This document shows, piece by piece, positions 16,409-58,099 of a stretch of 64,000 nucleotides of DNA (position 1 is the first letter of the stretch; each line of letters starts with the position of its first letter). The stretch spans positions 2,852,001 to 2,916,000 of the forward strand of contig CM065649.1 of assembly GCA_033220425.1 (NCBI GenBank). Reading direction: 5' to 3'. Source of the stretch: Lepraria neglecta. Taxonomy: Eukaryota > Ascomycota > Lecanoromycetes > Lecanorales > Stereocaulaceae. The notes beneath the pieces are model-generated. The model made no database searches. It saw nothing but the letters and a program-made list of their open reading frames with translations, and was not told the origin of the DNA. The translations under genes were made by a program, and so were the position numbers.

Positions 16409-18009
16409 TCACCCAAGGACATCATACCCACATATCTCATATAGCCTCCGCATGGACGCTGGATCGCATTTCTTTCTCATCATCTCCTCCTGGGCCCACT
16501 CTAAATCTTTCTCGTAGCTACCATCAGGGTCAGAGCGTTCACGCTCGGCTGCGAGGGCGGCGGTACGGAGGGCGGTGTAGCGGTCTTCTTCCTCCGAATC
16601 TAAGGGATTCTCGGTGGGCGTATATGTGCTGTTCACACTGTCTGGGGAGGGGTTGGCTTCGTCGTTATTTGCACTCTGAGAGATGGTGTCGAGCTGTGTA
16701 GGAGCTGGTGGGTCACTTAGGTTTGGTAGAGCGTCGGTAGTCTGCTCTGGCTGCCCTGAGCTATCACATTGATATTGGGAGGATGGAGTGGGAGGGGCGT
16801 TCGATTGGGTGGTGTTTGGCTCACACGCGGGATCCGGGGTGATCTCTTTGCCGTATGGGGTTGATATACGAGCACGCTTGTTCTGGTGCTCTGAGGAGAT
16901 GTAGTGGTCCCCTTCTTCCCGCACATCATCGAGCCTCCGGCGCTTAGGGGAGGATGCCGCCGAACCCGCCTTTGAAGGGCTTGTCTGGCACGATCGTGCT
17001 CCCGCTTGGCTTGTATAGCTCTGACATTCTCCTGGAGTCGCTTCGTATATTCCACCCTCTTGCGTCAAGATCTTGCGCGATATCTTCGGTTTAAGTAAGA
17101 AGCCTTCGAACATTGGAAAGATTGAGAGCGCAAGTCGGGCCAGCAGGAATTGAGGAACGAGCTTTTCCGATGCTTGAAGCTGTACGTTGTGGTATAGCTT
17201 CACTAGCTCGGTCGAATGGCTGAGCATGTGCAAGACGTATGGGGTTTTGCTTCTGGGTTCAGAAGGTATCTCCTTCTTTGGGACGAAGACGAATTTGATG
17301 CCATCGAATGCCTTATGAAGATCGGCTCGAAGGAGCATCATGTTATGGACGTCATCTATAGCCCGTTCGCCAGACCAATGACTGTTGAATATAAAGCCGT
17401 CTAGATCGTTGGCATGGAACCAAGCGCTATACTTCACGGGAATGATGTGGGCCTTCTCATAACTTTCCTCGCAGGCGCTTATCTGGCATCTAAAAGCGTC
17501 TCGCATACCCAGCGCTGTTATAATATCGCTCTTTGTAGTGGAAGGCAGGTAGGGGACAACTTCTGGCCATGAAGGAGGTAGGTTGTTGTGAGGAAACTTC
17601 CACTCGCTGAAGGCAGGAACGACTGGATAGAAGTTGTCTCGGCCACCTGGAACAAATTGGCATTATCTCTGACAGATATTGTTTAGGAGTAAATTCATTG
17701 GGTTTTACCTAATTCGTCTGGCAGAATGAAGTAGTATCGAGCCGATGCCTTGAGAACTTGGACTGGCGGTCCATTCCGGTCTTGTGTGAAGAAGCCATCC
17801 CAGCGATTCCCGGCAAGAATGCCGCATATTGTTTTGGCAGTATCGATATCAAAGCCGCCCTCTGGATCGTCGTATGCTGGCAGAGTCAGGAGACGGTCAT
17901 TGTCATCCTGGTAGCCTGGGTGCTTGATCACGATACTGTGATAAGGATTGGTGGAAACACAGTTCGCGTCTGGAGGGTCTTGAACCACTAGCTTGGTGCG
18001 AAGTGGCAT
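16409..18009 (-). CDS. HNH_2 endonuclease-domain protein
   Basis: Exon 1 is 18009-17709 and exon 2 is 17646-16409. The intron is 17708-17647 (62 nt, GTAAAA...TTGTTCCAG) and splices PDELG to GRDNFYPVVPAF in frame. Product 512 aa. Residues ~140-240 hold an HNH_2-type domain: CQISACEESYEKAHIIPVKY, then WF, then NMMLLRADLHKAFD, giving the His-Ile-Ile-Pro and Asn/His metal-site pattern. The rest (residues ~290-480) is low-complexity, Ser/Pro/Thr-rich with basic clusters such as PKRRRLDD that may act as nuclear signals. Such proteins are common in Pezizomycotina, with no established role. An overlapping frame at 16717-17055 is a shadow. The gene looks intact. Confidence 0.8.
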
Positions 18010-24500: not shown

Positions 24501-27500
24501 CAAGCCTGCATTCCAAGTCTCCCGGTCGTTCCATTGGAGAGACGGAAAGAGGACCAAAGCCTGATTTTTGCTTGCCCCGTGGACGTCGTGGACCCGCATC
24601 AATCTGCGCTTGTGAGTCTTTACTTTGAAGATGAAATGACCGTGCCGGAAATGCATTTTTACCATCGATTTTCAGGAGTCCTCGTAAGTTGCGGGATGAT
24701 GAACAGGGTGGATGAGCGTCTCGTCCTCGACCGCATCAGCACCTATGCGAGAAAGCAAGTACCATTCGATGTTGTAGCTTCCCGAGCCGAGAAACTCCTT
24801 CAATCACCCATCTGCGCAGACAGCTCACGGCCCGATGAATTCACCCAGTCCGTTCGAAATTGTGTGTGGCTGCCAGCACAGAGTCCAGAAAGATCGCATT
24901 CCCTCACCAATTCTTTCGAATGTCGAGACAGTGACGAGGAGCCATTTGTCGGCCGTGTGTGGCACACCCTACCATTCCGGGTGGAGCAAAGCTGGAGATC
25001 GATATTGGGCTGGCAGAACCGCATCCAAGTGGACGTACTGATGTCTCAACTTGTCAGAAGCATAGACGCCTCGGACGTTCCTTCTGTTGAGCAAACACTC
25101 TTCTACCTTGATGGAAATTACGCGTTTGAAGATTACGTGAGACGCTTGTCGGGGTTGAACTTTATTCGGAGCAGCAACGGGTTGTTTATCAGCCCCGCTC
25201 AGGCGTGTCGAGACGGTGGCGAAAGGCTGATGCCGTATCTTTACAATGTGGATTCGCGATTCTGGAGTGATCACGTCGGGATCATGACACATGCAAATGT
25301 CCCTAAAATTCCGGACCTGGAACGGCTCCATGACGTGCAAAAAGCTCTTGAATCGAAGGGCGCTTTGGATGAAGCGGATCTTGACGTAGCAGTCGAAATC
25401 GCGCACATTTGGGGCTCTCAGAGCCCCGAATCCTTTTACAGCCTGAAAGTGCCAGATGACACGGGGTTGCTTGTGGATGTGTATAGCCTGATGTTCAATG
25501 ATGCGCCGTGGGTGTCAGACGTGAATCGTGCCGTGGCCCACCCAAAGCTCTCTCGAGCCATCGCGGACCGATTGAAAATGCAGCCTGTCAGTGACCTGTT
25601 GAGGAACGGGGATCTCGGTATATCAGACATCGACGAGGACGAGTTCAATCAATGTGAAGAGGTCGCCGACGGGATCAGAGATACTTTGGATCGTTATACC
25701 AGGGAGTCCACATTTCACGAGTATCTTGCAAACGCCGACGATTGCGGTTCTGCGTCTGCGGTCAACTTTTTGTTTGATGGGACTAGCTACAACACCGAGC
25801 ATTTGCTGACGACGGACTTGAACAGCCTCCAAGGACCTGCCGTGTTAATTCATAACGATGGCGGTGAGCAAGCCTTCATAACGCTGAATTGATAAGTACT
25901 GATACAGCTGGCATTAGTGTTCACGGAGTCGGATTTTGAAGGCTTGAAACATGTTGGGCGAGGAAGCAAACGCGACGACCCAACGACCATCGGAAAGTTT
26001 GGGAGAGGCTCTCAGACAATGTATCATTGGACCGACGTGCCGATGATCTTATCCGGATGTCATCTTCTGATCTTGGAGTGAGAAATCCACCCCAGTACAC
26101 GAAGTTCTTTTGACTGACGATCTCTCAGTCCTCTACGGAAGTATCTCCCATTCAACTATCGCACAAGGCAGAAAAAGCCTGGCGTCAAGGTCAAATATGC
26201 CAAACTCAAAACCACCTGCCAGGATCAACTTGCTCCATTCGAGGGTTTGTGGGGTTTCAACAGCGAACATGACTTCTACGCCGGCACTATCTTTCGCTTC
26301 CCCCTGCGCAGCAAAGGAACGGAGTCAGAGTTACTAGAATCTGTGCGCTGTCCAGATTTGACCATGACTATTCAAATATTTCGAAACTGTCTAGACGAGG
26401 CTCGTTTGACGCTTCTTTTCCTACGAAACATTAATCGCATCGACTTTTGCATCAGGCATGACGCGAATTTAAATTGGAGAGTCAGTCGTGGAAATTGGCC
26501 GGAGGGTGGCACGTTTTCTGACTGGGCTAATGTCATCGTGGAGCGTTGCAACTCGCAGGATAAAGTCATGTGTACAACGGAACGATGGTGGCGTGTGATC
26601 GTCGACGTGCATGACGCCCCGGCCGACCTTCAACATCGTCACAAACGAAGAATGAAATACGTGGAATGTGGAATCGCAGCCCGCGTTACGACGGATGAAG
26701 AAGCTACGGAACCTTCTTTGAATTGTCTGAAGTCCAGATTTTTCAATTGCGTCCCACTAAAATTCGAATCGACGTTACCTGTCCAGGTCCACGCCACATT
26801 TCTCCTCTCAGGTGACCGACAGAACATTGCCACTGAAGAGACCTCACAAGATGCCGGTTCTGAATGGAACAACTGGCTTCTGAAAAAGAAAATTCCACAG
26901 GTCTATCTTCAGTTTCTCGAAGATGTTGGAAGAAAGATCGGCCACGATGTGTATGGCTTTTTCCCGATCGAACCCAACAGAAGGCAACAAAGTCTGTCCG
27001 ATCTGGTCCGAGCTGCGTTTTGGGAAGAAGTCAAGTCTTCTCATCACCGATTATTCCCTGTTGTGAAACCCGTCCAGATCGAAGATATAAGGAAATACAG
27101 CGCAATGAGACCGAGTCGCCGCCAAGCCCCTAAGTTGGTGGAGCCTGGGCATGCCGTGTTTGATCTCATGGACAATCAAAGATCCCATGCATTTCGACCG
27201 CTGCTGTCAAATTGTTCGGAGAATCTAGTGTGCCCACCTTCGCGACTCGCCAAGCATGTGAGAAATGTTCCTCAATTCAACTTCGTGACACCTTCTCTCA
27301 TTCGACGTGTCCTACAATCCGACAAAGCCGTCCAGTATGTCGAAAGCATGATGCGAACGAAGAGCGACACCTTTTCTATTTTGTTATCGTACATCATCCC
27401 AGGAACCGATAGTGACTTCGTCGAGCTCGATGGTTGCACAATTCTGCCCCTCATGGATGGAAGTTTGGGAACATTATCGCTGAGGCCTGGGAACGCCAAA

Positions 27501-30056
27501 GCGAAAAACAATCACGCGATTTTCTCCGCGGGCGCCGAATGCCGCAGCCTATTTTCATTTGCGTCGTCACACTTTTCTCAAGACAAAGGGAACGAAAATT
27601 TTGTGGAAAAGATTTTGGGCTCGGGCCTGTTGAATCTTGAAAGGTTCGAAAAGCGTCACGTAGATGGGATGCTAAGATGCAAGGAATCTTGGGCAGTCGA
27701 TTCGACGTCGAAGAAGTGGCTGTCTGATTTCTGGGACTATATGAATTCGACTTCTGAATTGGCAGAGTATCCCATCAAACCGGAGCCTTTGGACTTGGAG
27801 TCTCTTCAGCATTTTCCTCTTCTTCTTTGTCACCGAGATGGCACGGAGACGCTGAAAAGTTTACACTATTTTCGAAATAATCCAGCCGTCCTGAGCTCGG
27901 ATATCGAAACACACGAGGATCTTTATGCTGACTTTTCAGAACTGGACATTGTCGACTCTAGAACCATCCCCGCGAGCTATCGTGAAGCTGAAAAATCCCT
28001 GTTGGATTTAAATTCGATGAATCGCTTTTTAAGGAGCGTAGAGATTGTGGCGAAGCGAGGTACTCAGAGCGTTACTGAATTTGTGAGATCCAGATTAAAG
28101 GAAAGGAACGTTGAGGTCTGTTGGCCCTAATTTTTGATTTTATTAAAACGTGCTGAAATGTGTGTGAAGACTTTACGAGCCATCGTCATGAGTTTCTCGC
28201 CCGGAGTTGATCCCTCGCTGTCCAAAGTTACAAACGATCTTCCTCTGTGGCGGCGTATCTCGTCTGAATATGGGTACCTGACCGCCAAGGAAGCTCTCGT
28301 GGCCCAAGATTCAGCGTTTGTGGTACCGTGGATGAATGACTACCATCGATTCACAGATGACAAGTCGCTTCGAATGAAAACAGTCGACAATGTCCGATTG
28401 CTGGAAGATTACGTCCTTCCAAATCTTCCGAAGCTAGTCGACGAAAACCGCAAAGGTTCATACCTTCGGCTGGTGAATACTATAGCTTACGAGCCTTCTA
28501 TGAAGCGGAAGAAAAGCAAAAAGAATAAGGCTCGATATTTAATCCCATTGATGGAGTATCGTCTTGCTGCCCGACAGGATGGTGAGCTTTGCCTTGCGTC
28601 TACTCTTTATGATCACAGCGACGCGGTCTTTGCCGCCGCTTTTCGCTCCGAGGCTTCAAGTAAGTTTTTGATGCCTGAGGCTCGATTTGATCTATCGTTT
28701 TGGCACGAACTTGGTCTTCGCCGTCGTGAGTGTGGCAAGTTCAAAGGGCCGCATTATCTGGCCTGTCTACACGCCCTTCAACGCCGATTGACCAGTACCG
28801 CGGACCCGCACTTGGCGGCTGACATTCCGGTCGTTCTCTACCCTCTTTGCGCGAATGATGGCTCCTTGAACGACTTGGGCCCAACCACATGGAGCGCCAT
28901 AGCCAAATCAGCTGTGTTTCCTGTAACCTTGGCGTCGGGAAACGAGCCCGAGTATCGTAGGGGTCGGATTGAAGCCTTAACGTCGCAAAAGAACACACTG
29001 AGCCTGGAGAACATCGTTCGACGTAAATTTGCTGCAGTGTGCTGGAGCCAGACGCCCTTCGCGCTTCATGAACCGTCGATCGCCTCGATTCAAAAAAGCG
29101 AGTTAAAGAGCCAGCCAAATTGCGCGATGGTGTGGGAACATTTGATGTTTCTTGCTGAATGCGCTCAGTCAGTCGAGGAGGCTGAAATTGAAAGCTTTGT
29201 AAGCGATCTTCAGAGAACCTACGAATTCCTCCATCTCAATCAGCAGGAGAGCAAAGATACGTTCAGCCACCCAGATGCGGCCATATGGTTGAACGTGGAG
29301 GCGACCAACTCGAATCTGATTCCCCATCACGTTCTTCAGTCATCGTGGACCAGCCTTGAGAACCTGATACTCGACAGTCCGTGCGATGCATCCCCCCTCA
29401 TGATGGTCCATCCGTTCTTGGGACGCTTTTCGAGTTTATTGAAAGAAGTTGGATGCAAATCCATGTATTATCCATCAATTGCGCTCCCCTCCTTGAATCG
29501 ATCCGAAACGGCCTTTGCTGCTGTACGGCAGCTGCGCGAGAACGGTATCCTTACCGATGTAAGGCTCGAGGCTGAAGGAAACGTGATTTCCGCTCATAAA
29601 GTCATCCTTGCCAGCCGATCTCTGTATTGCAAAAAGCAGTTCCACGGACCGTGGGCCTTTATTTCCGACAGCAATGTGAAGAGCAAAGTCATCAAATTAG
29701 ACGACATGACGTACGCAACTCTCAAGACCCTAGTGGAGTACTGCTACAACGAACACTTTGACTGGGCCGCTGGCATGCGAGTCAAAGAGGAAGAGGACTT
29801 GTCGGTAACTGCAGATAAGCTTGACGCGTTACTCGAAGTTCTTGTAGCTGCAGATCGGTGGCTGATGCCGGACCTGCATCTTGACGCCCACCGGCAGGTG
29901 ATCGCCGGCATCCGGTTCTTCGTTCGACCCGAAAATGTCAAACAAGTGGAAAAGGTGGCCGACGAGGCGAATGCAGAGGAGTTGAGGAAGTATTGCCAGG
30001 AATATAGCATCCGGAACGCGGAGGCTGTTTTATTGGCCAACGCGGAGACTGGATGA
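21563..30056 (+). CDS. Giant sacsin-like protein: two HSP90-like ATPase regions plus BTB domain
   Basis: Exons: 21563-21706, 21762-21962, 22013-22440, 22487-25863, 25918-26077, 26129-28115, 28170-30056; introns of 46-55 nt with GT...AG ends, all frame-preserving. Product about 2,727 aa. Residues ~15-140 are a sacsin-type GHKL ATPase: PAGAGVLRELLQNADDAGAS (N-box), GPALLAYNDALFSEKD, GKFGLGFSSV-YNWTDCPS. A second unit at ~1320-1440 reads EYLANADDCGSAS, GPAVLIHNDG-VFTESDFEGL, GKFGRGSQTMYHWTDVP. Residues ~2550-2640 form a BTB/POZ domain (TDVRLEAEGNVISAHKVILA). Sacsins are co-chaperone-like; BTB suggests cullin-3 or dimer coupling (inference). The last intron is doubtful: 28116-28169 (GTCTGT...GAAG) is atypical, in frame, and contains TAA at 28128-28130. 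The alternative is one nonsense codon. Start chosen at 21563; 21431 is in frame upstream. Confidence 0.85.
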
Positions 30057-37028: not shown

Positions 37029-37990
37029 TTAGAGACGCCGAGAATCTGAGATTCTAATCCAATCCACTCCCCCCTCGCTGCCCCCTGGTGTTACGTGTAA
37101 TCCACCTCGGAGATCAATACGGGCTAGCACATGGTTTAGGTCCGCGGTGCTGGTATCAGTGGGCAGGACATCGATGATCCGATCGTAGAAGCCTTCCACA
37201 CAATGTCGAAGCATCTCACCAATGGCAGAATCGAGAAATCCGGCGGATGGATTGAAATCATTTCTGTAGATCGAGCGACTCAGGCAGCTCTTCCCAAAGC
37301 CGAGGAATTCCCTACCTGTCATTGCAGGGATGTCGATGTTCTGGCATAGTGTCAGTGGGTGGCCGAATTAGTGTTCTCACTCCTGAAGCTATACACACCG
37401 GCACAAGTGGATATGTAAATAGATGCTTGGGCGGTCCAACGCCAGGGCTAGCAAGCCTAGAAAGGCTATAACAGGTGCCCCAGCGCTAGGAAACTCCCAT
37501 GCCTAGGCGGCATAGACCTGGAGTGTAGATAGGCTATATATAGGCTATGTATAAGGTGCGGGTGGGCGGGAAAGAGCTGCTATGGCTCTGAAAGAGATGA
37601 ACTCGACTGAAGAGCCCACTGCTGGTGGGATGCTCATATAAATAGTGCTCTCAGGAAGCACGGATCTCTCGCTATGGCCCATGGTCATGGCGCATGGCTG
37701 AAACCGCATCTGATCATGAGACACACTAACCCACAGTCCCACTGTAGCGATTAGTCGACTATCTCCGGTGGAATGACTGCGTGCTGATTCGCATATTCTT
37801 CCGGAATGGTGAGTCTGGGTAGTGTCCGGCCATGGCTGGAGTTTGGGACGTTGGCTGTTGTGAAGGGTTGTTCGCGAGGTTCTGGTTTGAACGTCCTTGA
37901 GATGTAGAGATTTCGAATTGCAGGCTTTGAGGAGGCTGCAGATGTTGGAAAGAGAAGAGTATTCGAGTCGGAGAATACCCTTTAAAGCAC
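37029..37990 (-). pseudogene. Hypothetical gene interrupted by a 383-bp element
   Basis: On the minus strand, coding-like sequence from ~37985 (SDSNTLLFPTSAASSK, ISRTFKPEPREQPFTTANVP, RLTIPEEYANQHAVIPPEIV) meets the element at 37750. Past it, the frame resumes at 37367 with FGHPLTLCQNIDIPAMTGRE and continues to a stop at 37029. Excising 383 bp rejoins EIVD and FGHPL in frame with a TAA between them, as from CAA. No start codon is visible; a TAA lies directly upstream of the coding-like stretch. The family is not recognised. Confidence 0.5.
37368..37750 (+). mobile_element. 383-bp non-autonomous element, copy A
   Basis: Begins TTAGTGTTCTCACTCCTG and ends CCCACTGTAGCGA. It is about 90% identical by eye to copy B (46604-46986). 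Its first ~130 bp match 46987-47118 and its last ~200 bp match the right end of the recombinase element (to 57915). Near the 3' end is the palindrome ACAGTCCCACTGT, preceded by an inverted copy of the left tip (TTAGTGTGTCTCA read on the minus strand). The flank repeats TTAG, so either no TSD or a 5-bp ATTAG TSD is possible. A TATATAAGG-like box lies mid-element. Confidence 0.7.
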
Positions 37991-43801: not shown

Positions 43802-46603
43802 ATGTCGACAGTGTCCGACAGCGGCGGTAATGCTTTAGCTCTGATCACCTACACAAGTTCTGGAGAGACTCATCAAGCCGCGGGCTCGACTTCAAACAAA
43901 ATGTATGACTTCCTCGATTTCCTCGGGGTTGCCCAAAGTCTGAAGATTGACTTTCTTCCGATTAAATGGCAGCCAGCATTAGACAAAGTCGGCAAAGGTG
44001 GTACGGCTGAAATACGTCAAGCATTGACCAATCTCCAGATGACTTTTCTTTAGCATATGTGCTTGCTAATCAGTTCGTATGAGAAGAACCATGTTCATTG
44101 CATGCTAATGCTAACTCTATGGAGTCGCGTGCAGAAAGTAAATAGACTTTTCGTGCGCAAAATACTACGCTAACCGCTTTAGGCTTAGTGCAAGGGGCAC
44201 CGCCAGAGATTCCACTACATAATGCTAACGCTTTTACATTCAAACGTCTGGAGCGTCCTCGGTGTGCTCTAGAAGAGGCCCGAAATTTGCGTGCACTTAT
44301 AGCGGAAGTATCAATATTAGGTCATCCCGCCATCCGATACCATCCGAACGTTGCGAACCTCGAGGGCATCTGCTGGGACGTTGTCCTTGGTGGGGAGAAA
44401 GTTTGGCCAGTTCTAGTGTTTGAAAAGACTGGGTGCGGGGATTTGAACAGATTCATGACAACAGGCCCAGGAGAAGAGCTGGATTCCAAGAACAGACTTG
44501 ACATGTTGTTTGATGTTGCTCTCGCGGTTAGAGAATTGCATGCCATTGGTATGTTCTTACACTCTCCCTTTTTGGCGACGTGACTGAATAAAAGAGGTGT
44601 CATTCACGGCGACATCAAGCCTGAGAATGTTCTGATTTTCTCTGAGAACAATGGCCACTATGTGGCGAAAGTGATGGATTTCGGCTACTCTACTCTATTT
44701 GCAACAGATAGCGACCCGATTACAATGCCTTATTCGGAGCTCTGGACGGCTCCAGAACAGCATCATCGGGGGATCCTGCCTATACAAGCTAGGAAAATGG
44801 ACGCATACTCATTTGGCATGCTCTGCCTATGGCTTCTCTTCTACAACAAAGGGGCGAATCGAGATCGCAACTTCGAGAAGGATTTAGAAGATTCACAGAA
44901 GGAACTATCAAATCACACTTCTGAGTTGCTTAGAGCAACAGCAGACCTAGAAAACCGGGAAAAAGACAATATGCAAAAAGTCTTCAGGTCAACACTCGCC
45001 CAGGATCCAGCTGAACGAACAGCGAATTTCAATGAACCCTTGCAACTCTTATCACCACATAGGTCGGTACAACTTTTGTATCTGAAACGAGGTACTAACG
45101 AGAGACTAGAGCCTTGTATTTAGCAACCCCGGCGGACAGAATATCCATAACTCACAAGGATTTCCAAGTAAGTTTGACTCGCGGTATTAAATGACGCAGC
45201 TATACTTTGTACAGTGGAATAATAGTCTTTAGATTGCTCCATCATTATACCAGCTTATTGTAGCTCACTGTGGCGTACGCTATTACCTCGCAAAGTGCCT
45301 GAAGGAAAGGGGCGATCGACCCTCCACTACTCAGTGTCACACTTTGGACCTTGCCTTCTGTCATGAGCTAGGCTTGGGTATTCCAAGAGACATTGTTAGA
45401 TGCCGATCCTTGCTCAGTAAACATAACATACCAATCAGAGATCTAGAAGATATAGTTGAGCAATTGAAAAGAAACCAGCAACCACCAGAGTTTCAGGAAG
45501 GCAGCTTCAGAAGATTCTTAGAACAAGGTCATTTCGACGCATTCGATTTTAGTCAATAATACCGCGAAGAGCTAGGAATAAATGAAGCAGAATTACGATA
45601 TCGAAGAGAGATTGAAACGCTGGGATCTTCACTTGGGGATGATCATCGGATCGTTCAAGAATTAAGGCGACAATTGTCTTTTCTCATGAGTAGTGAAGGA
45701 AGATGGAAAGATGCGGAGAACCTGCAAGTTCGACTGATAGAACTTGACAAGAGAGTAACAGATGAAGGTCAATATGCAGTGCGCTTTGCCTCGTACTTGG
45801 CATCAACATACAGGAACCAAGGGCGGTGGAAAGAGGCCGAAGAGCTAGAGGCACAAGTCGTGGAGACGAGGACGAACGTACTAGGGGTAGAACATCTAGA
45901 CACGCTGACTAGCATAGCCAACCTGGCATCGATATACTGGAACCAAGGGCGGTGGAAGGAGGCTGAAGAGCTGGAGGTACAAGTTGTGGAGACGAGGACG
46001 AAGGTACTAGGGGTGGAACATCCAGGCACGCTGTTCAGTATGGCCAACCTGGCATCGACATACTGGAAGCAAGGGCGGTGGAAGGAGGCTGAAGAGCTGC
46101 AGCTACAAGTCGTGGAGACGAGGAAGAGGGTGATAGGAATAGAACATCCAGGCACGCTGACCAGCATAGCCAACCTAGCATCGATATACAGGAACCAAGG
46201 GCGGTGGAAGGAGACCGAAAAGCTAGAGGTAGAAGTCACGGAGACGAGCAAGAGGGTACTAGGGGTGGAGCATCCAGGCACGCTGACCATTGTAACCAAC
46301 CTGGCATCAACATACTGGACGCAAGGGCGGTGGAAGGAGGCTGAAGAGCTGCAGCTACAAGTCATGGAGACGAAGAAGAGGGTACTAGGAGTAGAACATC
46401 CAAGCACGCTGGCCAGCATAGCCAACCTAGCATTGACATATAGTAGCCAAGGGCGGTGTAAAGAGGCTGAAGAGCTAGAGATACAAGTTATAGAGATAAA
46501 CAAGAAGATAATAGGAATAGAACACCCAGACACGCTGACCAGCATAGCCAACCTGGCATCGATATACTGGAATCAAGGGCGGTGGAAGGAGGCCGAAGAG
46601 TTA
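43802..46603 (+). pseudogene. Protein kinase-TPR protein, 5' portion (split gene)
   Basis: ATG 43802. The kinase domain shows a Gly-rich loop (VGKGGTAEI), the ATP-binding Lys segment (FTFKRLE), VWPVLVFEKT, the catalytic loop IHGDIKPENVLIF (HGD instead of HRD), DFGYSTLF and TAPEQ. An intron at 44549-44596 (48 nt) is well supported; another near 44050-44200 is likely. A Sel1-like segment follows (DLAFCHELGLGIPRD, ~45344), then at 45674-46603 at least seven 42-aa TPR units of kinesin-light-chain type (NLASIYWNQGRWKEAEELEV...GVEHPGTL). Nonsense codons at 45121, ~45150, ~45227 and 45557 all fit CAA/CAG to TAA/TAG. The last TPR is cut at 46603 by mobile DNA and resumes at 57916. Probably a signalling protein; now dead. 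Confidence 0.75.
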
Positions 46604-46986
46604 TTAGTGTTCTCACTCCTGAAGCTATACACACCGGCACAAGTGGATATGTAAATAGATGCTTGGGCGGTCTAACGCCAGGGCTAGCAGGCCTAGAAAG
46701 GCTACAACAGGTGCCCCAGCGCTAGAAAACTCCCATGCCTAGGCGGCATAGACCTGGAGTGTAGATAGGCTATATATAGGCTATATATAAGGTGCGGGTA
46801 GGCGGGAAAGAACTGCTATGGCTCTAAAAGAGATGAACTCGACTAAAGAGCCAACTGCTAGTAGGATACTCATACAAATAGTGCTCTCAGGAAGCACGGA
46901 TCTCTCGCTATAGCCCATAGTCATAGCGTATGGCTGAAACCGCATCTGATCATAAGATATACTAACCCACAGTCCTACTATAGCAA
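46604..46986 (+). mobile_element. 383-bp non-autonomous element, copy B
   Basis: Same ends and length as copy A (TTAGTGTTCTC...CTATAGCAA). It sits in direct tandem with the left end of the recombinase element, which starts at 46987 with the same TTAGTGTTCTC. It differs from A mainly by C/T and G/A transitions, as RIP would cause. Confidence 0.7.
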
Positions 46987-47229
46987 TTAGTGTTCTCACT
47001 CCTGAAGCTATATACACCGGCACAAGTGGATATATAAATAGATGCTTGGGCGGTCTAACGCCAGGGCTAGCAGGCCTAGAAAGGCTACAACAGGTGCCCC
47101 AGCGCTAGAAAACTCCCAAACAACACCTAAATAACGCCCCCGTAGAGGGTTTCCGAGGAAGGCCTCGCAGGGTAGCTCCTAGCGAGTATCGCCAGTACTA
47201 GCGCTGCTAGTACCAACGTGATACTATAA

Positions 47230-47456
47230 GTATTCGCTCAGGATAAGTAACTATATATAGACGATAGGAGTCCGACTTCTATCGCCCTAGTAGCTAGATT
47301 TCTTCGTCACTAAGGCCTACCTCTTGTACAGAGGTAGCAGCCCCCCTACGGAAGGAGTATCCTGAATAATAACCTTCTACCCCGAGTAATATAAGTACTT
47401 AATAAAGGTAACTCGTAGTGATCTCCCTTATAAATATAGAGCCTCCTGTTACGAAC
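47230..47456 (-). pseudogene. Tyrosine recombinase, C-terminal part
   Basis: Minus-strand reading from the Gypsy junction gives YSGYSFRRGAATSVQEVGLS, DEEI-LLGR*KSDSYRLYI. This is the C-terminal box of tyrosine recombinases: the H-x-x-R motif (H now Y, as from CAC to TAC), LGRW (W now a stop) and the nucleophile Tyr in SYRLYI. It continues the recombinase region at 54182-54640 across the Gypsy insertion. Confidence 0.7.
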
Positions 47457-47955
47457 CACGTTGCGTGCGGTGGTTCTATGGATTGATTCTCAATGGGGAT
47501 GGAGGTGCAACCTGACAAGAGTATGAAGCAGGCTTCAAGTGATGCTAAGCGGGTCTGGTATATGATCAGATGATATATGTTCAGTGCCTAGCCTAAGAGA
47601 TCTATCGCATGTAGTAGACAATTGAATAGTAAGTTGAGCACGATGCTCCAAGTGGTGAGCAGTGCTCCGCATATATAGACATACGAAATCCATGCCAAGC
47701 ATTCTTGATCGCACTGATCGCACTAATCGCATCTACGCTCATTGCGACCACTGCGCTCATCGCTTAATATGCCAAGCCTTCCTGATCGCACTGATCGTAC
47801 TAATCGTATCTGCGCTCATTGCGACCACTGCGCTCATCGCTTAACATACCAAGCCTTCAGGGTCTGTCCGAGTCGGACACCGACTCGTCGACTCGAACTA
47901 TAACGGGCGCTACGCTCTATAAGCGTATCCCTGATCATGTTTCCTGATCGTAATA
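47457..47955 (-). repeat. Gypsy 3' LTR
   Basis: 499 bp, starts TGTTACGAACC and ends GATCGTAATA on the plus strand. It is nearly collinear with the 5' LTR; differences are mostly transitions. It contains duplicated CTGATCGCACTGATCG-type short repeats (47700-47840). Confidence 0.9.
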
Positions 47956-48255
47956 TTAGCTCCCTCTCCCAGATTTCTCGTCCCGAGAAACCATCCATCC
48001 TTTATACCACCCCGACGTACTAAACGTTCAGATAAACCGACCGTCCGCCGAACGGTGTTGGCCAGTAAGCTAAACGAAGTTATTATATAGCCGTGCTCCC
48101 GATGTGTTGCCAGCAGCAAATAGTACCTAATAGGTACAGGGTCCGACAGGTATTCTAACTATATAGGCAGCGGTAGGAAATATAACCTTATAGTATCACC
48201 CCTCGAAATATATTATATTAAGATAGAATAAAAGGAAGTATAGTTATAGTTAAAA

Positions 48256-48567
48256 AATACGCGCGAAGAGCTTAAGGATTATATACAAAAATTAATAGAG
48301 GAATCTATACGTCTTTAGACTACGCTGATATACCTTTAGATATAGTATAAACATCTTGAAAATAAAAAGCGGAAGATTGTAGACTAAGAGATATAGAATA
48401 TTAAGGAGTTAGAAGAAGACTAGCGGTCTATCCTAAGTATTCCTAATAATTAGATATTCAACGTCTCGTCCGAACAATTTGGCTTCCTAGCCGGAACCGA
48501 TTGGTCCTCCTTCCCGATTATTCCCGGAACTCCTATAGAAGGTCCTGGCAGTTCCGGAGGTTCTTAA
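48256..48567 (+). pseudogene. Antisense ORF in the Gypsy element (coiled-coil type)
   Basis: Opposite to pol and next to the 3' LTR, the plus strand keeps one frame: NTREELKDYIQKLIEESIRL, YKHLENKKRKIVD, NIKELEED, FNVSSEQFGFLAGTDWSSFP, IIPGTPIEGPGSSGG and stop. All interruptions are TAG/TAA, as from CAG/CAA. The first half has a heptad-like charged helix. A protein of this type (coiled coil then Gly/Ser/Pro tail) reverse to pol is, from memory, associated with other ascomycete Gypsy copies. Function unknown. Confidence 0.5.
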
Positions 48568-48599
48568 GGGGTTCCCAGGTGTTTTCGGTATCGTTATAC

Positions 48600-51500
48600 C
48601 CTTTCTATTTAACTAGATATTTCTAATCGACCTAATTTAGAATCGTCTTAACCTTAAACTCTATTTCTTCCTTAATATTATAGTAAAACATTTCTTAGAG
48701 AGGTATATTAGAGTCCGCTAGCTCTAAGAGTAAGATATAGAATACCGGATATACTTTGGCGTCAGGTAGTAATTAGAGTTCATAGTTAACTAGTCCTTTT
48801 AACCGTTTAATCAAGAATAGTCTAACCTTAATATAATCTAGTTTCTTACTTAGTCTCGTCGTCCTTATATTTTTTGTTAGGAGGTATACTTTATCCCCCT
48901 CTTTTAGCTGAGGAATATTCTTTCTTTTCTTATTAATCTATCCCTTTAACTTCTTATTAGAGCTCTTAATAGACCTTTATATATCCCTATATAAATTCTT
49001 TAGCTCTTCTACCTTAACTAAGGCTCTTTCTATATTAGGTCCCTCCCTTAGTTATAGAAATATATTTATATTCTTTCTATAGTTAGTAAAGAATAGGGTT
49101 AGTCCGGTTATATCTGACCGCTTATTATTATACGCCAGTTATACTATCGGAAGTAGTAAAACCTAGTTATCCTACTTCCGGTTTATATAATATCTCAGGT
49201 ATACTTCTATTATTTGATTTATACGTTCTATCTATCTATTAGTCTATAGGTAATATACTATTAATATCCAAAGTTTAGTTCCAATTACTACTATTAGCGT
49301 TCTCTAGTAGTTAGAAGTAAATAGTTTATCTCTATCGGATATTATCGACTTTAGTATACTATAATCCCTTATTAGCTTATCGAGTAGTATAAAGGCTAAC
49401 TAGTCTACCTTATATATCTCCTTGAAAGGTATTATAATTATATATTTTATAAGTTTATCTATAATAACTATAATCGAGTTAAAGGTATCCTACGTAGCTA
49501 GATCTTTTAAAGGTAGTAGTTTAACTATAAAGTCTATTATAATATCATCCTATAGTAACTCTAGTATAGGAGTAAACTATATTTATCCGTATTTAGCGTG
49601 TCGTATAGCCTTATTCTACTAGTACTTAATATATTCTTTAATATATTATTTAACACGCGCTCGAAGCTTCGGCGCCGCGTATCCTCGTCCTAGGAGTTCT
49701 ACTATTTTAGATACTCCTAGGTAACCTTATAAAGGGTCGTTATAGTAATCCCTAATTACTTCTTCGGTGTATTATTCAGGTAGATAAGTCCTCTCCTAGT
49801 ATTTAAGTAATATAGTATCTAGCTGATCCTTCCTTAGGGTTATTACGAATATATCGTCTTCGTAGGCCTTTACAATCCTATTAGTTATATCAGGTCCCGT
49901 TATATAAAGGGTTATAGCTAATACCTAGTATAGTACTAATAATCCGTCCGCTTCTTTCTTTAGGATTAGTCGCTCTATAATATTCTTCTCTTCTATATAG
50001 TCTAATCGCCTACTAAGGGCGTCTACTCGACTATTATCCTTCCCTAGGGTATAGGTTATCTTAAACTTATATTAACCTAGTAGTTCTAACTATCGGACCT
50101 ATTATCTATTTAACTCCTTTATTATTATAAAGTTAAGAAGGTTCTTATAGTCCGTAAAGATAGTTAAGTCTAAGTAGCTTTCTACGTATACTCGCCAGTT
50201 CTAAAGTATATATACTACGGCAAGTAACTCCTTATCGTATATATTATAGTTCTATTCTACTACTAACATCTTCCTTAAATAGTAGGTAACTAGATACCAT
50301 TTTTAGTCTTTTATCTAGTATAAGTATACTCCTATTACAAGATCCGATATATCCGTTTCGATATAAGCTAGCTCGTTTATTTAAAAGGTATAGAGCACTA
50401 GTAGATCCGTATATACTTTCTTTAATATATTAAATGATTTCTATTAGTCTTTTCCCTATATAAACCTAATATCTTTCTTCGTAATATCTATTAGTAGTAG
50501 TACCTTCTTAGAGTAGCCCTCGATAAACTTCCTATTAAAGTTGGCAAATCCTAAGAAGCTTTGTACTACTTTGACGTCCTATAGTATAGGCTATTCAGCT
50601 ATAGCCTTAATCTTCTCCGGGCTTATACTAATACCTTTTATACTAACTATAAATCCTAGAAACTCTACTAATTCCCTGTAGAATTCGCACTTTTCTAGTT
50701 TAAGAAGAAGTTTCGCTTATAATAGGTATCTAAGGACATCCTATATATACTCTATATATTCTTTCTTATTCTTAGAATAAATTAGTATATTATCGAGGTA
50801 CGCTATCGCTGTTCTAAGTATACTCGTATAATATTATTAACAAGTACTTAGCAGGTTACTAGTGCGTTGGTGAGTCCAAACGGTATTACTAGGTACTTAT
50901 AGTAGCTATATCTCGTTCGGAAGGTAGTCTTCTATTCTTCGCCTCCTTTTATCCGAATTAGATTATATATACCTCTAAGATCCAGTTTAGTAAATATCTT
51001 TGCTTTTCCGAGCCGATCCTATAGCTCTCCTATATTTAGCAATAGATATCTATTCTTAATAGTAATATCGTTCAACTTTCGATAGTCGATATATAGTCTT
51101 AAGCTTCCGTCCTTCTTCAGTACAAAGAGGATCAGGTAACCTACTAGTAATTTAGATTCCCGAATAAATCCCTTTTTGAGGTTCTCGTTAATATACCCGC
51201 GAAGTACTTTAAGTTCCTTTTCTAATAATATATAAATAGGTCTAAATATTAGTTACTTACTAGGTTCGAGTTTAATCTTATAATCCTATAGCTGGTACTT
51301 AGGTAATACTTCTATATTCGTCTCTTCCTCGAATAAGTGCGCCTACTTACTATATTCCCGAGGGACAGAGAGTATATTAGTTCCTCCCTTATCTCTTACT
51401 TTATTATCCCGCTAACCTTTACTAGTAACTATAGAGTTGGACTACCTTTTAGTACCGTCCTTATGCGAAGCTAAGGTAATATATACCTCGACCGGTCTTC

Positions 51501-53660
51501 GGTTTAACTTCTTATCTACTATTAAATACTACTAATATATAGGTATAATCCTAGTAATATTGCCGGATTAATCCATCTTGAGTACTCCTCGAGCCTAATC
51601 GATTATTAGGTTATACTTCTTTAACCAAGGTATTCCTAAAATTATATAATAGGTAGCTATCCTAATAACGTTAAAGGTAATCTCCTTATAGTAGTACTAA
51701 ATTATAATAGATAACAAAAGTATCTCTTCGTCTACCTTTCCTGTTAATAGTATTAACCCGTCGGCTATCTGAAGATTATACTAGTATAACTTCTTCTAAG
51801 TTAGTATTCCAGTTATCCATACCAGATCTTATAAGATGAAATTTCTAGTAGCTCCAGAATCTATTATCGCAACGGTCCGCTATCTATTAACGATCACCGG
51901 TGTTTTTATATATATATTATATTGCGCGGAATATAGATATTATTTGGGGGTTAATATATTGATCTCCTTATGGCTACCTCTACCACGAGGGATTACTCTT
52001 TTCCCTATACGGGGAGGAATCCTATAAGTTATTTCTCGAACTTGTATTTCTTGTAGTCATCGTGCAAATATATATACTACTATTATAGGTGGTACTAGTT
52101 TACTTCTAGACTCTAGCGTCTTATTTGGTTTCTATAGTATACTTCTTCCTCGTCTTTCTTATATAGGAAGTAGCTTAGTTATTATTTTCTTACTAAGTAC
52201 TAAAGGTATCTATCGTCCTTATACTTATAGTACTAGTAATTACTATAGGATGATTTTATCAGAACTCCCAGTTCCTTTCTATAGTTAATTCTATAATAGT
52301 CGTAACTATTCTCTATATACTATCTCTAGTAGACTTCCTTGTATTTAGGGTAATAGTAGTTATACCTGAAGTCTAAGACACTAAAATTGTTCTAGAATTC
52401 TCTTAGTCTTTCTTCCTCTAAGTATTCTCTTCTCTCCTTAGATATAGTAGATCTAGGTTCGGGTATTATTAGTAGTCCTTTTCTTTTGATTATAACTTCC
52501 TATTCCAATTCTTCCTCGTCCTAATCCTACTCGGGTTACTTTCCCTAGGCATTACTACTATCTCTAATATATAGCTTCCCTATCCAAGTATTAGCTTCAT
52601 TTATAAAGCTGTCGTCAGAGAACTCCTCGTCTCCCAAGTCAGATTCTTCTTCTAGTTACTAGCCGTCGACTTCGTTCTATATTGGTAAGATTCTGCTAGA
52701 ATCACTATCCTGGTCCTGTACCTTTTCTAGTACATTTAGCTACTGTCGATACACTATGTTTTTCGACTTGCAGTCTCTAGCGAAGTAGCCCGGTTTGCTA
52801 TAGCTATAACACGTGAGTGTTTTCTTTCTGCCCCCTTGCTGCTTCTTGCCCCTAGCTAGCCCTCTAAAGGCCTATTTACCTTTCTTCTCTATAAAATCCA
52901 GTTCTATTAGTACTAGTCTATAAGGGTCGCATTCTTTATAACCTAGGCGGTAGCTCTTCGATTTAGTAAAAAAGCTCGAGTATCCTATCCCGCCGACTCC
53001 TCCGTCGTACCTTTTTTCTATAGTCCTTTCAAATAACTTATCGTTAATTTCGATTACTTCTTCGATTAGTTTATTAAGGGTATTAAGGATAATCCCTAAC
53101 CTTATAAGTTCGTCCTTGATATTGTCCTTTAGACCTCTTCGGTATATAGTTATTAATACGTTATCGTCCTAGTCAGTCTTCGCTATATACTACTAGAACT
53201 ATATCGAATATTCCGATATAGACTTCTTCTAAGTCAAGTACTAGATAGTTCGTATTACTATATTAACCTCGTTGGATAGTCCGAATATACGGCGGATTTT
53301 AAGCCTGAATATTACTATACTTTCTATCTACTGCTTAATCTTACCGTCCTTATTATTATCTTCTATATACTTTTTTAGGAATAGATCAACCTATTTTTAG
53401 GCTCTTCTACGTAAGTAAGTAATAGCGAAGGTAGAATATCGTTATATAGGTATAAGGTCCCCTTAGAACTTTAGATATAATAATACCTAGGATAGCTATC
53501 CCTCGAGCTTGTCCCTCTCTCTATAGTATAAGTCGGGCTGGGCTATCTTAATATACCTGCTAAGTCCTTCGTTAATAGTAGGGCGTCTCTATCCGCTTCC
53601 TCCTCCTAAGGAGCTTAGGGTAGGTGCCCTAGGGTCTCTTAGTGTAGTACTTATCCTTAA
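48600..53660 (-). pseudogene. Gypsy gag-pol polyprotein, degenerate
   Basis: Minus-strand order: a Gag CCHC-type knuckle (~52790, CYSYSKPGYFARDCK, with Cys and His changed to Tyr as by RIP), an aspartic protease motif DSGATRNFI (~51850), reverse transcriptase (~51170-50800: [38 protein letters not shown]), RNase H (~50400-50130: ETDISDLVIGVYL, YDKELLAVVYIL, IFTDYKNL) and a less readable integrase region (~49700-48650). Many stops. This is Ty3/Gypsy order (RT-RH before integrase). Confidence 0.85.
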
Positions 53661-53672
53661 GGGTACTTAAAG

Positions 53673-54181
53673 TATTACGAACTATATTACGTGCGGTAGT
53701 TCTATAGATTGATTCTTAATAGGGATAGAGGTATAACCTGACAAGAGTATAAAGCAGGCTTCAAGTGATACTAAGCGGGTCTAGTATATAATTAGATGAT
53801 ATATATTTAGTGCCTAGCCTAAGAGATCTATTATATATAGTAGACAATTGAATAGCAAGTTGAGCACGATACTCTAAGTGGTAAGTAGTGCTCCGTATAT
53901 ATAGATATACGAAATCCATGCCAAGCATTCTTGATCGCACTGATCGCACTGATCGCATCTGCGCTCATTGCGACCACTGCGCTCATCGCTTAACATGCCA
54001 AGCCTTCCTGATCGCACTGATCGTACTGGTCGCATCTGCGCTTATTGCGACCACTACGCTCATCGCTTAACATGCCAAGCCTTCAGGGTCTGTCCGAGTC
54101 GGATACCGACTCGTCGACTCGAACCATGACGGGCGCTACGCTCCATGAGCGCATCCCTGATCATATTTCCTGATCGTAACA
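53673..54181 (-). repeat. Gypsy 5' LTR
   Basis: 509 bp, starts TATTACGAAC and ends GATCGTAACA on the plus strand, matching the other LTR with some transitions and small indels. Confidence 0.9.
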
Positions 54182-57100
54182 CCTCCCAGCTAGAAGAGGG
54201 GACTATTTAGTATAGTCTTCTACTTAAACAAATGGCGTAATACCTTAACTATATATACTCTATTACCGGAAGCTGCAATAGTAAGGGTAATACCCCGCCT
54301 AAAAGGGTCCGTTTTTAATACTAGGAGGGTGAGCTCTAGATGGTTCTCGTATAGCCTTACTAAGCGACGAGTCAGGAACCACTAGCTGAATTCGTGATTA
54401 TTACAATCTTTTGCGGTATAGGTAAACTCCCCTACACGGAGGAATACGGCGAATATAAGGCAAAAGGCCGTATATAATATTAAACTAGTCTCGTTATACT
54501 GGTTAAAATAAGGGAGGATCTATAGTAGTAGATCCTTAGTAATAGGACGTCTTTCTTTTATCCCGGCCTCGCCCTATAGGCGTTATATACCCGCTATTAT
54601 ATATTCTAATTATAGGTTATAAAATACTACGAGGCCCCTATAGCCTATATCTATATATATTAATCTGACGCCTGTCAAGTAGGCCTTAACTATCTTTACC
54701 TTGACCCGTTTCGTACTAAGATCTACTATCTAGCTAGCTAATAAGTTCACCGTCGCTGGGAAGAGAGGTATACTCCCCCTAAGTATATAATAGGTAATAT
54801 ATGACTGCGTTGGTATAGTATACGTTTTTCGGGTTTTTATTACTAACCCCTACTATAGGAGTCGAGCGGCTTCTCGTGGCAGTGCGGTCTAACTGTACTA
54901 CGATTATAGTAGGTCCCGCCCTGACTCGGCGGGGATATAGCTAGGTAACCTAGCTAAGGGTATCTATCAGCGATTTTTCGATATCGGAATCGCGAGAGGT
55001 TATTAGCCAGTTGGTTAGCTCCTGTTGGGATCCATTCCGGAACCAAATAGATGTTATATCTAGCCGTGAGTATAGCTATATCCCTTAGTAGGGCTATAGC
55101 TGGTCTACGGATCGAGGATTTATACAGCCTATAGATACAGGTATTATTGTCGCAATAAAGGGTTAATTTTGATCCCCGGAGTCGTTCTAACCATAGCTAT
55201 ATCGTGTAAAGAACAGCCTTTATTTCTTTGAATTATATATCTTTGCGACGATAGTATATAGTAACTAGTATACTAAAGACGTCCTGGACCGAGTATAAAT
55301 AGGCTAGGTGATTAAGAATGTAGCCCCCTATACCAAGCCTCCTAGAGGCGTCAGTCTATATATACTATAATGGTTAACTAACGACGTGACGTAGTAGTTT
55401 AAGGCCATTCTAGTCCTTTAGGAAGGTATACTACTATAGTAGATTAGCCCTTATAGCTGCGGTAATATATAGGATAGCTATTGGCCTCCGAATTATATTA
55501 AAAAGTCGCCTTAAGAAGGCCCTTCCTAGAACTACAATTTTAGTAGTAAATAATAGAAAACCGACTGCTGACTCAAGTTCCGAATATAGGATTATAGGCC
55601 TTTTAAGGAGGCCTTATACTATATTTCTTGCCCTGTCTAGCTTATCTAGAGGGAGTCGTACCTGTATAAGGATGCTATCGAATTCAATTCCTACAAAGTC
55701 GGCTTTTATACCTCTCGCATCCTTCGAATAGTTAACTAATAGGCCTAATTCGTTATATACTTAATCGAATTAATAGCTATATACGATAGTATTAGCTTAT
55801 AGTGCCAGAATAGCGAAGAAATCGTCCAAGTAGTATAATACTATAGCCTATAGTAATACTGCGGTTATAATCCAGTTAACCGCCTTCGTAAACAGGTTAA
55901 AGAGAAACGGTACTATATATAAACCAAAGGGTAGATAGCGTTCTTTCTAGTAGAAACTATTGTAGTAGAAACCTAGTAGCTACTAGTCTAAAGTAGCCAC
56001 TAGAATATGATAAAAGGCGTCTTTCAGGTCTCGCTTAACGAATTAAGCCCCTAGACCTTGTTACAGCAGCGTATCCACGGTATTATCGTATATTATATAC
56101 TCTAAGGTACCCTAATCATAAGGTATACTATTATTAACTGAGCTGCCGTATAGAAACGAGAGGTTATGAATACATCTCCAGCCCCTATCGTGCTTCAGGA
56201 CCAAGCCTAGCGGCAAATAGACGTACCGGGGCTCCGTCTGATAGTCTACTAGAGTTAACCGGTTATACTAAAGCTGTTTTTAAAGGTCCGCAGTTAATAT
56301 ATCTAGTACTACATATACTGATTGGTGGTTTTGACTAAGGTATTAGATGTCTATACCTCTATACCCGATTTTTGCCCCCTTCTAAAGAATAGCCGCTAGG
56401 GTCTTGGCGAAGGTTTGATCGGGGTGATTCTTTAACTATTTACACTAACTATCGACGCGCAACGGGCCCTGATAGGGTAGATCTGGATCGGATAGATCGA
56501 CGAGTGAGTATAGAAAACCTTCTACTACGTATAGTAGCGATATAGGCACCTGCGGGTACTCTAGGAGTCATTCCGACTTGGAAATTCGATTTACTAGTAG
56601 TATTAAGTTAGTGTTATTCGAGGCCGAGTTAGCCCTTGAGCACGTATTCGCTAGGTGATTCTACTAATATATAGAATAGATATGAAGATACCTGCAGCGG
56701 TTGTGTAGACAGTGGCCGCTATTAAATAATCTATACGTAAATAGGCCTGAAGAGGAGGATTTTAAGGTACTACTACCTGCGTATAACCTAGTATCGCCCT
56801 GTATAGATATCCTTCGGACTAAGAGGTCTGAGTAGCGTCTATTATCGATCGACTAGGCTACTAGATTATCCTGGCTACTCAGGATGTGTATAGTAATGAA
56901 CGCGTGATGGTATACGCGGATAGAGTCAAATTTATAGTATATATATAGCTCTATAAGGCGAAGGCGGTAGTCTGAAAGGGCTACCTATAACCGTATACTT
57001 ACTATAGGGTGCGTATAGTGATAAACGGCCTAGCTATATACCTCGAAATACTGCAGGAGGTATACTAACCTGTTAGTCTCCTGGATAGTATCGCTATCTA

Positions 57101-57650
57101 TACGATTAGTGTAGTTATAGACTAGCTTTATAAGGTATTCCGTTTTAAACGTTCCAAAGAAGATTTACTTAAAATACTTAATATTAACAGTATAATAGCG
57201 CTTATAAAGACTAAGAAAGGGTTTCTTACCTTTAGTATACCTGAAAGAGACTATTAGGCTATCCCCCTCCTCTAAGTCTATACTAGAAATAGATAAGTAG
57301 CGATAACGATGACGGCAACGGCGACTATATGACTTATAGACTCGATAGCGATCCTAGTGATCGCGCTAGTCCTTTAGCGCCGCCAGGCGGTATTCTAACT
57401 CGCGAATTTGATTATAGTAACTAGGAGGAGGTATTTCGTCGATAAGGCTTGGGCTGATAGTTCCCGAAGAGGTAGCAGATACCTGTAATTCGGGGGGGGT
57501 GTAGTATCCCTCCGAGTGGCTGTTTTGGCTTATTTACGGTTCTTGGAGGAGGTCTTGGGGGCCGTCTTAGAGGCTTTCTTAGAGGCTTTCTTAGAGGTAG
57601 CTGATTTACGTATAGCGACGGCTATAACTAGGTGATACTAAGGTGTTTAT
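54182..57650 (-). pseudogene. Retroelement RT plus tyrosine recombinase N-terminal part
   Basis: Minus-strand reading: a Lys/Ser/Ala-rich start near 57630-57540 (KASKKASKTAPKTSSKN), a long RIP-damaged region, then RT motifs YVYLPLGLV, WRCIHNLSFLYGSSVNN, LPFGLYIVPFLFNLFTKAVN, the catalytic YYLDDFFAIL (~55830) and DFVGIEFDSILIQVRLPLDK (~55660). Downstream, at 54640-54182, the recombinase begins: FLRVGEFTYTAKDCNNHEF with the first catalytic Arg, VRLYENHLELTL, LKTDPFRRGITLTIAASGN. The RT type (SSVNDGI/LPFGL/HYLDDF pattern) is that of DIRS-like elements, not Gypsy or LINE. No RNase H was resolved by eye. Confidence 0.7.
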
Positions 57651-57915
57651 ACTTAGAAAGAGGGGGGAAGAATGTGAGTATAGATGGGATGAAAGGATAG
57701 ATAGACTAATATATATATAGGCTTAATTGCTGTGAAAAGAACTGCTATAGCTCTAAAAGAGATGAACTCGACTGAAGAGCTAACTGCTGGTAGGATGCTT
57801 ATATAAATAGTGCTCTCAGGAAGCACAGATCTCTCGCTATAGCCCATGGTCATGGCGTATGGCTGAAACCGCATCTGATCATGAGATACACTAACCCACA
57901 GTCCCACTGTAGCGA

Positions 57916-58099
57916 GAGGTAGAAGTCATGGAGACGAGCAAGAGGGTACTAGGGGTGGAACATCCAGGCACGCTGCTTAGTATGGCAAACGTAGCGTCGA
58001 CATACTGGCACCAAGGGAGGTGGAGAGAAGCCAAAGAGCTGCAGGTACAAGTTATGGAGACGAAAAATCGGCTCAAGTATACTATAGCTAGTAGCTAGT
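57916..58099 (+). pseudogene. Kinase-TPR gene, severed 3' portion
   Basis: Continues the TPR interrupted at 46603: EVEVMETSKRVLGVEHPGTL, SMANVASTYWHQGRWREAKE, LQVQVMETKNRL, then TIASS and TAG. It matches the 42-aa repeats upstream. The frame is exactly continuous with 46601-46603 if the intervening 11,312 bp are ignored. Confidence 0.8.

Follow-up and report, generated by a model that had tools for sequence, protein, structure and literature searches.

Organization of the locus

The stretch of DNA analysed here, referred to as the window, comprises 64,000 nucleotides of the genome of Lepraria neglecta (contig CM065649.1, C4:2852001-2916000). It contains a gene for a tetratricopeptide repeat (TPR) protein, read on the plus strand, that is broken by one insertion occupying positions 46604-57915, with its coding strand on the minus strand. 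The insertion is very probably a copy, damaged by repeat-induced point mutation (RIP), of a multi-copy Ngaro-type tyrosine recombinase (YR) retroelement in a filamentous ascomycete, and an element with long terminal repeats (LTRs) was later inserted into it. Along the minus strand the parts follow the order A1-body-B1-A2-spacer-B2, where the body consists of open reading frame 1 (ORF1), reverse transcriptase (RT), RNase H, and YR. The features are listed below.

46604-57915, minus: whole insertion, Ngaro-type YR retroelement with nested LTR element (from the terminal repeats and a TPR seam found at offset 0 only)
46604-46735, minus: B2, outer 3' repeat, 132 nt (repeat comparison)
46736-46806, minus: 71-nt spacer (repeat comparison; a 35-nt piece matches the genome 143 times)
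46807-46986, minus: A2, internal repeat, 180 nt (repeat comparison)
46987-47118, minus: B1, internal repeat, 132 nt (repeat comparison, junction pattern)
47255-47353, minus: C-terminal YR motifs FRRGAAT and SYRLY, separated by the nested element from the rest of the gene
47442-47446: CCTCC target duplication of the nested element, copy 1 (sequence)
47447-54181, no strand assigned: nested LTR element with TG..CA ends (LTRs of ~505 nt, 91% identity)
54182-54186: CCTCC target duplication, copy 2 (sequence)
54382-54519, minus: YR piece with LRVGEF (motif; integrases matched by the entire YR frame in another copy)
54954-55196, minus: RNase H-like piece (RVT_3 0.031, below cut-off; 0.0096 in another copy)
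55821-56033, minus: RT core motifs RDLKDAF, LPFGL, and YLDD (RVT_1 matched in a less mutated copy)
56664-56852, minus: ORF1 piece with a Cys/His-rich, gag-like stretch (in another copy, the homologous piece scores 0.014 with zf-CCCH_10, below cut-off)
57736-57915, minus: A1, outer 5' repeat, 180 nt (repeat comparison)
45560-46603, plus: upstream part of the interrupted TPR gene (TPR_10 1e-87)
57916-58098, plus: TPR gene, part after the insertion (repeats, seam test)

The TPR gene is built of 126-bp repeats, and joining position 46603 to 57916 restores their phase. At offset 0, 50-61 of 70 positions match the four upstream repeats, compared with at most 28 at each of 12 other offsets. The proposal, made in a preliminary description of this locus, that removal of 46604-57915 rejoins the TPR gene is thus borne out at that single offset. 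The same description placed the end of the insertion correctly at 57915 and gave 46604 in its text; the start assigned to the feature itself, 46987, is in fact the internal A2|B1 junction.

The nested LTR element splits the recombinase gene of the YR element. Its limits, previously given as 47457-54186, are corrected here to 47447-54181, with CCTCC as the target-site duplication. It is AT-rich and broken, none of three pieces compared with Pfam gave a meaningful match, and by eye only it would be classed as Gypsy. The 5-bp mark of a DDE integrase adjoins here the clean mark of the YR element.

Terminal repeats and the internal junction

The sizes of the repeats and of the spacer were resolved over 30 copies of A1 and 29 copies of B1. 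A1 is identical to A2 across 180 nt (30 copies) and B1 to B2 across 132 nt (29 copies), apart from one RIP-like column in each, so that no other fixed A1/A2 difference could serve for tracing crossovers. The spacer is found between A2 and B2 and is missing next to A1 and B1. The sequence of the A2|B1 junction is that of the two outer ends of the insertion joined together; it reads GCGATTAG in 47 of 50 junctions in the genome, GCAATTAG in two, including the window copy, and GCGATTAC in one. The uniformity of the 47 rules out that A2 and B1 are coupled by a variable sequence of 2 nt. The repeats are therefore split direct repeats in the order A-pol-B-A-B, which defines Ngaro elements (PMC3783388). 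Membership in DIRS1, with its inverted terminal repeats, is ruled out by the direct orientation.

Encoded domains

All of the RT and YR motifs lie on the minus strand of the window, RT being followed by YR, in agreement with what had been read from the motifs earlier. Those of RT are RDLKDAF (56013-56033), LPFGL (55920-55934), and YLDD (55821-55832), and those of YR are LRVGEF (54424-54441), FRRGAAT (47333-47353), and SYRLY (47255-47269), with an RNase H-like motif (55008-55037) between the two groups. The frames of the window copy are interrupted by many stops, and its pieces matched neither RT nor YR profiles in Pfam, RVT_3 at 0.031 being the only match. The domain evidence comes largely from one less mutated genomic copy, the open frames of which were taken unedited. 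This copy has frames for an ORF1 tail with a Cys/His cluster, for RT, for a weakly matching RNase H, and for the recombinase. Its open RT frame matches RVT_1 (2.6e-12, above the cut-off), and a 342-residue open recombinase frame, which overlaps the end of the RNase H frame, matches PHROG integrases (1.6e-14 and 5.8e-12). A tyrosine recombinase is thus encoded downstream of RT on the same strand, as in Ngaro elements.

The match of the recombinase in NCBIfam is a weak one to XerA (0.053), no relative was found among the sequences of solved structures, and a single-sequence structure model has a mean predicted local distance difference test (pLDDT) score of 37. No methyltransferase, protease, or DDE integrase was found in the pieces and frames scanned, in which the first part of ORF1 is present only as pieces, and PAT-like membership was set aside on the missing methyltransferase. 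No relatives were confirmed in viral contigs and prokaryote genomes.

Copies in the genome

The genome searched comprises 42.0 Mb in 11 contigs. The pattern of the internal junction returned 59 rows, of which 45 exact and five with one mismatch were counted as 50 junctions, while nine with two or three mismatches were discarded as apparent outer ends flanked by host DNA. Since the reversed pattern had no genome matches, the 50 junctions mean that the element is not a chance pattern. A 35-nt piece of the spacer gave 143 matches, and none when reversed. With 143 spacer units and 50 junctions, about 93 units have no junction and represent solo A-spacer-B units of 383 nt, although a small number could belong to rearranged copies. 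One of these solos lies in the window itself (37368-37750, minus strand); it differs from the commonest solo at seven positions, two of them RIP-type.

The RT piece has 51 and the YR piece 55 matches in the genome, a few of which are two pieces of one copy, and searches with the two body ends yielded 54 and 52 candidates, 40 of each being scored. Of 22 copies with both ends, 16 measure 4554-4573 nt, five 10.6-13.5 kb, and one 4190 nt; the window copy falls into the 10.6-13.5 kb class because of its nested LTR element. The ends are constant in the sample, with the same end bases found in 18 copies at the start and 18 at the end (loci on the plus strand), and an end-pattern search of both strands supplied 29 left and 30 right flanks. 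Full-length copies with other termini, which would have contradicted the preliminary description, were looked for and none was seen among ends located by similarity, a procedure that badly degraded ends would escape. In three of the 40 scored body ends (L017, L112, and L113), A2-spacer-B2 is missing and B1 directly meets other DNA. These three long copies are the reciprocal form of the solos.

Insertion sites

Two loci on different contigs (L106 on C2 and L109 on C3) hold the same solo with the same flanks, carried in another RIP-mutated repeat of which at least three copies lack the solo. These three empty sites equal the joined flanks exactly. The ATAG on either side of this solo was considered as a duplication and rejected, both being present already in the empty sites. 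Insertion with neither duplication nor loss of target sequence is thus observed at the two sites that have an empty control, the TPR seam and this solo, and the search for a duplication at empty sites, which could have overturned the earlier proposal, found none in the three available for this one insertion.

The flanks of 50 insertions (22 long and 28 solo, with L104 excluded) were compared with shuffled pairs. Matches of 0-2 nt between the two flanks number 44 against 48.4 expected, close to the shuffled pairs. One solo (L111, C6:3258825-3259257) has the identical 6 nt GTATGC on both flanks, in contrast to the clean junctions at other sites.

The insertion sites favour TAGT beside the insertion point, a weak half-site. 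Among 49 distinct paired sites, positions +2 to +5 are T in 33, A in 29, G in 28, and T in 24, respectively, position -1 is a purine in 38, and at least three of the four TAGT bases are present in 19, compared with 3.5 at control offsets. Bases 2-5 of the element's own end are also TAGT. At 29 of the 49 sites, target and element ends have no base in common at the insertion point. Site by site, there was no support for a palindromic target core with a 7-nt spacer (p 0.92), and of 11 palindrome spacer lengths only 3 nt stood out (64/196, p 0.002 before correction).

RIP and the origin of the solo units

With the commonest solo as reference, we compared the 383-nt unit of the 29 long copies most similar to that in the window, drawn from 30 loci, the thirtieth of which lacks the unit. 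Of 737 differences, 682 are CpA/TpG transitions, 42 are other C>T or G>A changes, and 13 are of other kinds. Each unit has 10-53 differences and RIP-type change is present in 29 of 29, so that the long copies in the sample are RIP-mutated (CpA to TpA). The first 20 solos, which were the top-scoring ones, have altogether six RIP-type and six other changes, and 12 of them are identical across 383 nt although they lie at different sites.

Eight more solos were taken from 20 further places, three having been chosen for mutated spacers. Identity of all solos is ruled out by these, seven of the eight differing from the commonest solo at 4-44 positions. L104 has no gap-free alignment to it. RIP changes number 39 each in L106 and L109, 24 in L108, and nine in L105, and L107, L110, L111, and the window solo have one or two RIP changes along with 3-9 others. 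A less biased test covered 100 of the 143 spacer units, from C1 to part of C7, that are free of mismatches outside four ambiguous RIP sites (otherwise-changed units and later contigs being excluded); a RIP site of the 35-mer is changed in 24 of 37 units with a junction versus five of 63 without (Fisher p = 2e-9). Solos, young and older, are mostly spared by RIP. A length threshold of RIP near 400 bp, which is not strict, is the usual explanation for such sparing (PMC10787394).

The simplest source of the solos is recombination between A1 and A2 before RIP. In our scheme, they would most likely arise by such recombination inside new long copies, and their length of 383 nt would then mostly shield them from RIP. 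Solo AB repeats are known in Ngaro elements of Cafeteria, where an origin by recombination has been proposed (PMC8547959).

Two other origins deserve consideration for the solos. The first, which we regard as possible but doubtful, is that the A2-spacer-B2 unit spreads independently as a non-autonomous passenger of the Ngaro element. RNA started in A2, the internal copy of A1, would span A2-spacer-B2 only; this short RNA would be copied and circularised with the help of a long copy, and would insert as a short element ignored by RIP. The large number of solos next to only three reciprocal forms, the identity of the 12 solos at different sites, and the scarcity of RIP marks in solos while long copies have them all speak for this route. 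However, a solo has no internal junction on which to template its own circle, A1-A2 recombination over the available 180-nt repeat yields the same product, and the divergence of seven of the eight further solos is such that they are therefore not the result of a single burst. The second origin, unlikely and slightly less favoured than the passenger, is action of the recombinase on the outer A1 end and the internal junction, two places that are alike up to the crossover, whereas the other outer end adjoins host sequence. It would explain the excess over body-only forms, because identical ends are joined in just one of the two deletions that could occur, and the need for a working recombinase would place the event before RIP. 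Ordinary recombination may have acted instead, and the 29 targets without a shared base at the insertion point indicate that identity may not matter to the enzyme. Recombination between A1 and A2 stays the simplest source, but solos outnumber body-only forms to a degree that also admits their formation by the recombinase or a mobile short form.

Assignment of the element and mode of insertion

The arrangement of the repeats agrees with the accepted Ngaro scheme, in which the joined ends are preserved as a copy in the internal B1|A2 junction. This junction can act as the template for a circle, which the recombinase inserts. Applied to this family, RNA spanning A1 to B2 would be reverse transcribed, the ends would be joined on the internal junction copy as template, and the recombinase would insert the circle cleanly at sites with the weak TAGT half-site.

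The earlier proposal of a tyrosine recombinase retroelement inserted into the TPR gene without target duplication agrees with the domains, the A-pol-B-A-B repeats, the seam, and the empty sites. We hold the assignment to Ngaro to be highly probable. Several points weigh against it. It was reached from repeat order and domain profiles, and a study and review of nematode elements cautions that structure by itself is an unsafe basis for classifying YR elements (PMC4157794). The recombinase scores 1.9e-5 against Pfam Phage_integrase, its 24.9 bits being under the curated cut-off of 27.1, and RNase H is weak, with matches below cut-off to RVT_3 (0.0096) and to a model of ribonuclease HI (0.00034). 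Flank matches of at least 3 nt number six versus 1.6 expected; two of these belong to the L106/L109 insertion, shown to be clean by its empty sites, and the remaining four (three with CTA on both sides, one of 6 nt) are unexplained. A circle, the use of the junction as its template, and past activity are what we infer.

Two other identities can be set against the Ngaro assignment. A DNA-only YR transposon of the Crypton kind lying beside an unrelated RT fragment would share the clean insertion and the YR gene, both of which are also Crypton traits, but it is very improbable: the numbers of RT and YR pieces in the genome match, 16 of 22 paired copies have both enclosed in one bounded unit of ~4.57 kb, and split direct repeats are present. 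With RT and YR in one unit, Crypton membership was rejected. That an ordinary LTR (Gypsy) element or a long interspersed nuclear element (LINE) was misread owing to the nested LTR element is next to negligible, for although the nested element is real and the closest RT sequences of solved structure are, weakly, those of cauliflower mosaic virus (CaMV, 0.0038) and of an LTR-type chain named 'Reverse transcriptase/ribonuclease H' (0.0094), those 16 copies are as long as the element is without nesting, no duplication occurs at sites with an empty control, and the recombinase matches integrase profiles.

Neighbouring genes

A piece of a protein kinase domain (44584-45120) lies shortly before the interrupted TPR frame and shares its strand; the two may be one gene. 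Elsewhere in the window, sacsin and BTB domains are found in long open frames at 22359-30053, and an HNH_2 endonuclease domain in an open frame at 16409-17662. The genome has 150 scored matches to the HET domain versus none in 14 control genomes; abundance of HET domains is a mark of filamentous ascomycetes.

Relation to known elements and significance

Ngaro elements of Basidiomycota, animals, and Cafeteria resemble the family described here in the layout A1-[ORFs]-B1 A2 B2, with RT-RNase H followed by YR, and in the lack of a methyltransferase and the presence of solo AB units (PMC3783388, PMC8547959). They differ from it in host, this one being an ascomycete, and in the RIP damage of most of its sampled long copies; the 71-nt spacer between A2 and B2 may be a further difference. 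DIRS1-like elements share RT, RNase H, YR, and duplication-free insertion with the family, but DIRS1 has inverted repeats, a methyltransferase, and, in the proposed model, a 3-bp junction identical to the target (PMC3266345), whereas here the repeats are direct and most sites (29 of 49) share no base. The repeat order of VIPER elements is also common with the Ngaro-type layout (PMC6681497). In the Podospora LTR elements crapaud and grenouille, full copies are RIP-mutated and solos mostly spared, as here, although those are LTR elements and these are YR elements (PMC10787394). No target half-site for Ngaro was found in the literature searched, most subscription papers being outside its scope.

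The view that such retroelements are rarely described in Ascomycota fits what is on record: one truncated copy without terminal repeats in Neosartorya fischeri, reported in 2013 (PMC3783388), one complete family of 23 kb in Zymoseptoria tritici, reported in 2015 (PMC4502367), and Ngaro rows in repeat tables for Sporothrix, for Hortaea, and in a comparison of Dothideomycetes (PMC9281073, PMC7601665, PMC7181583). The family described here adds to the known Ngaro group and, given these precedents, is not the first in Ascomycota. It is set apart from those of N. fischeri and Z. tritici by its 50 junction copies and ~93 solos.

Little has been documented about YR retroelements in Ascomycota. In this family, a single genome provides ~140 units whose ends are fixed, along with a measurable half-site and true empty sites. 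The same 383-nt sequence can be compared at two lengths: as a free-standing unit it mostly lacks RIP marks, and within ~4.6 kb it is RIP-mutated in the sampled copies. The family thereby allows direct tests of the rule by which a Ngaro recombinase inserts and of how RIP depends on length in this species. Should the doubtful passenger origin of the solos nevertheless be true, it would be in the short form that the family endures without mutation in a RIP-competent fungus.

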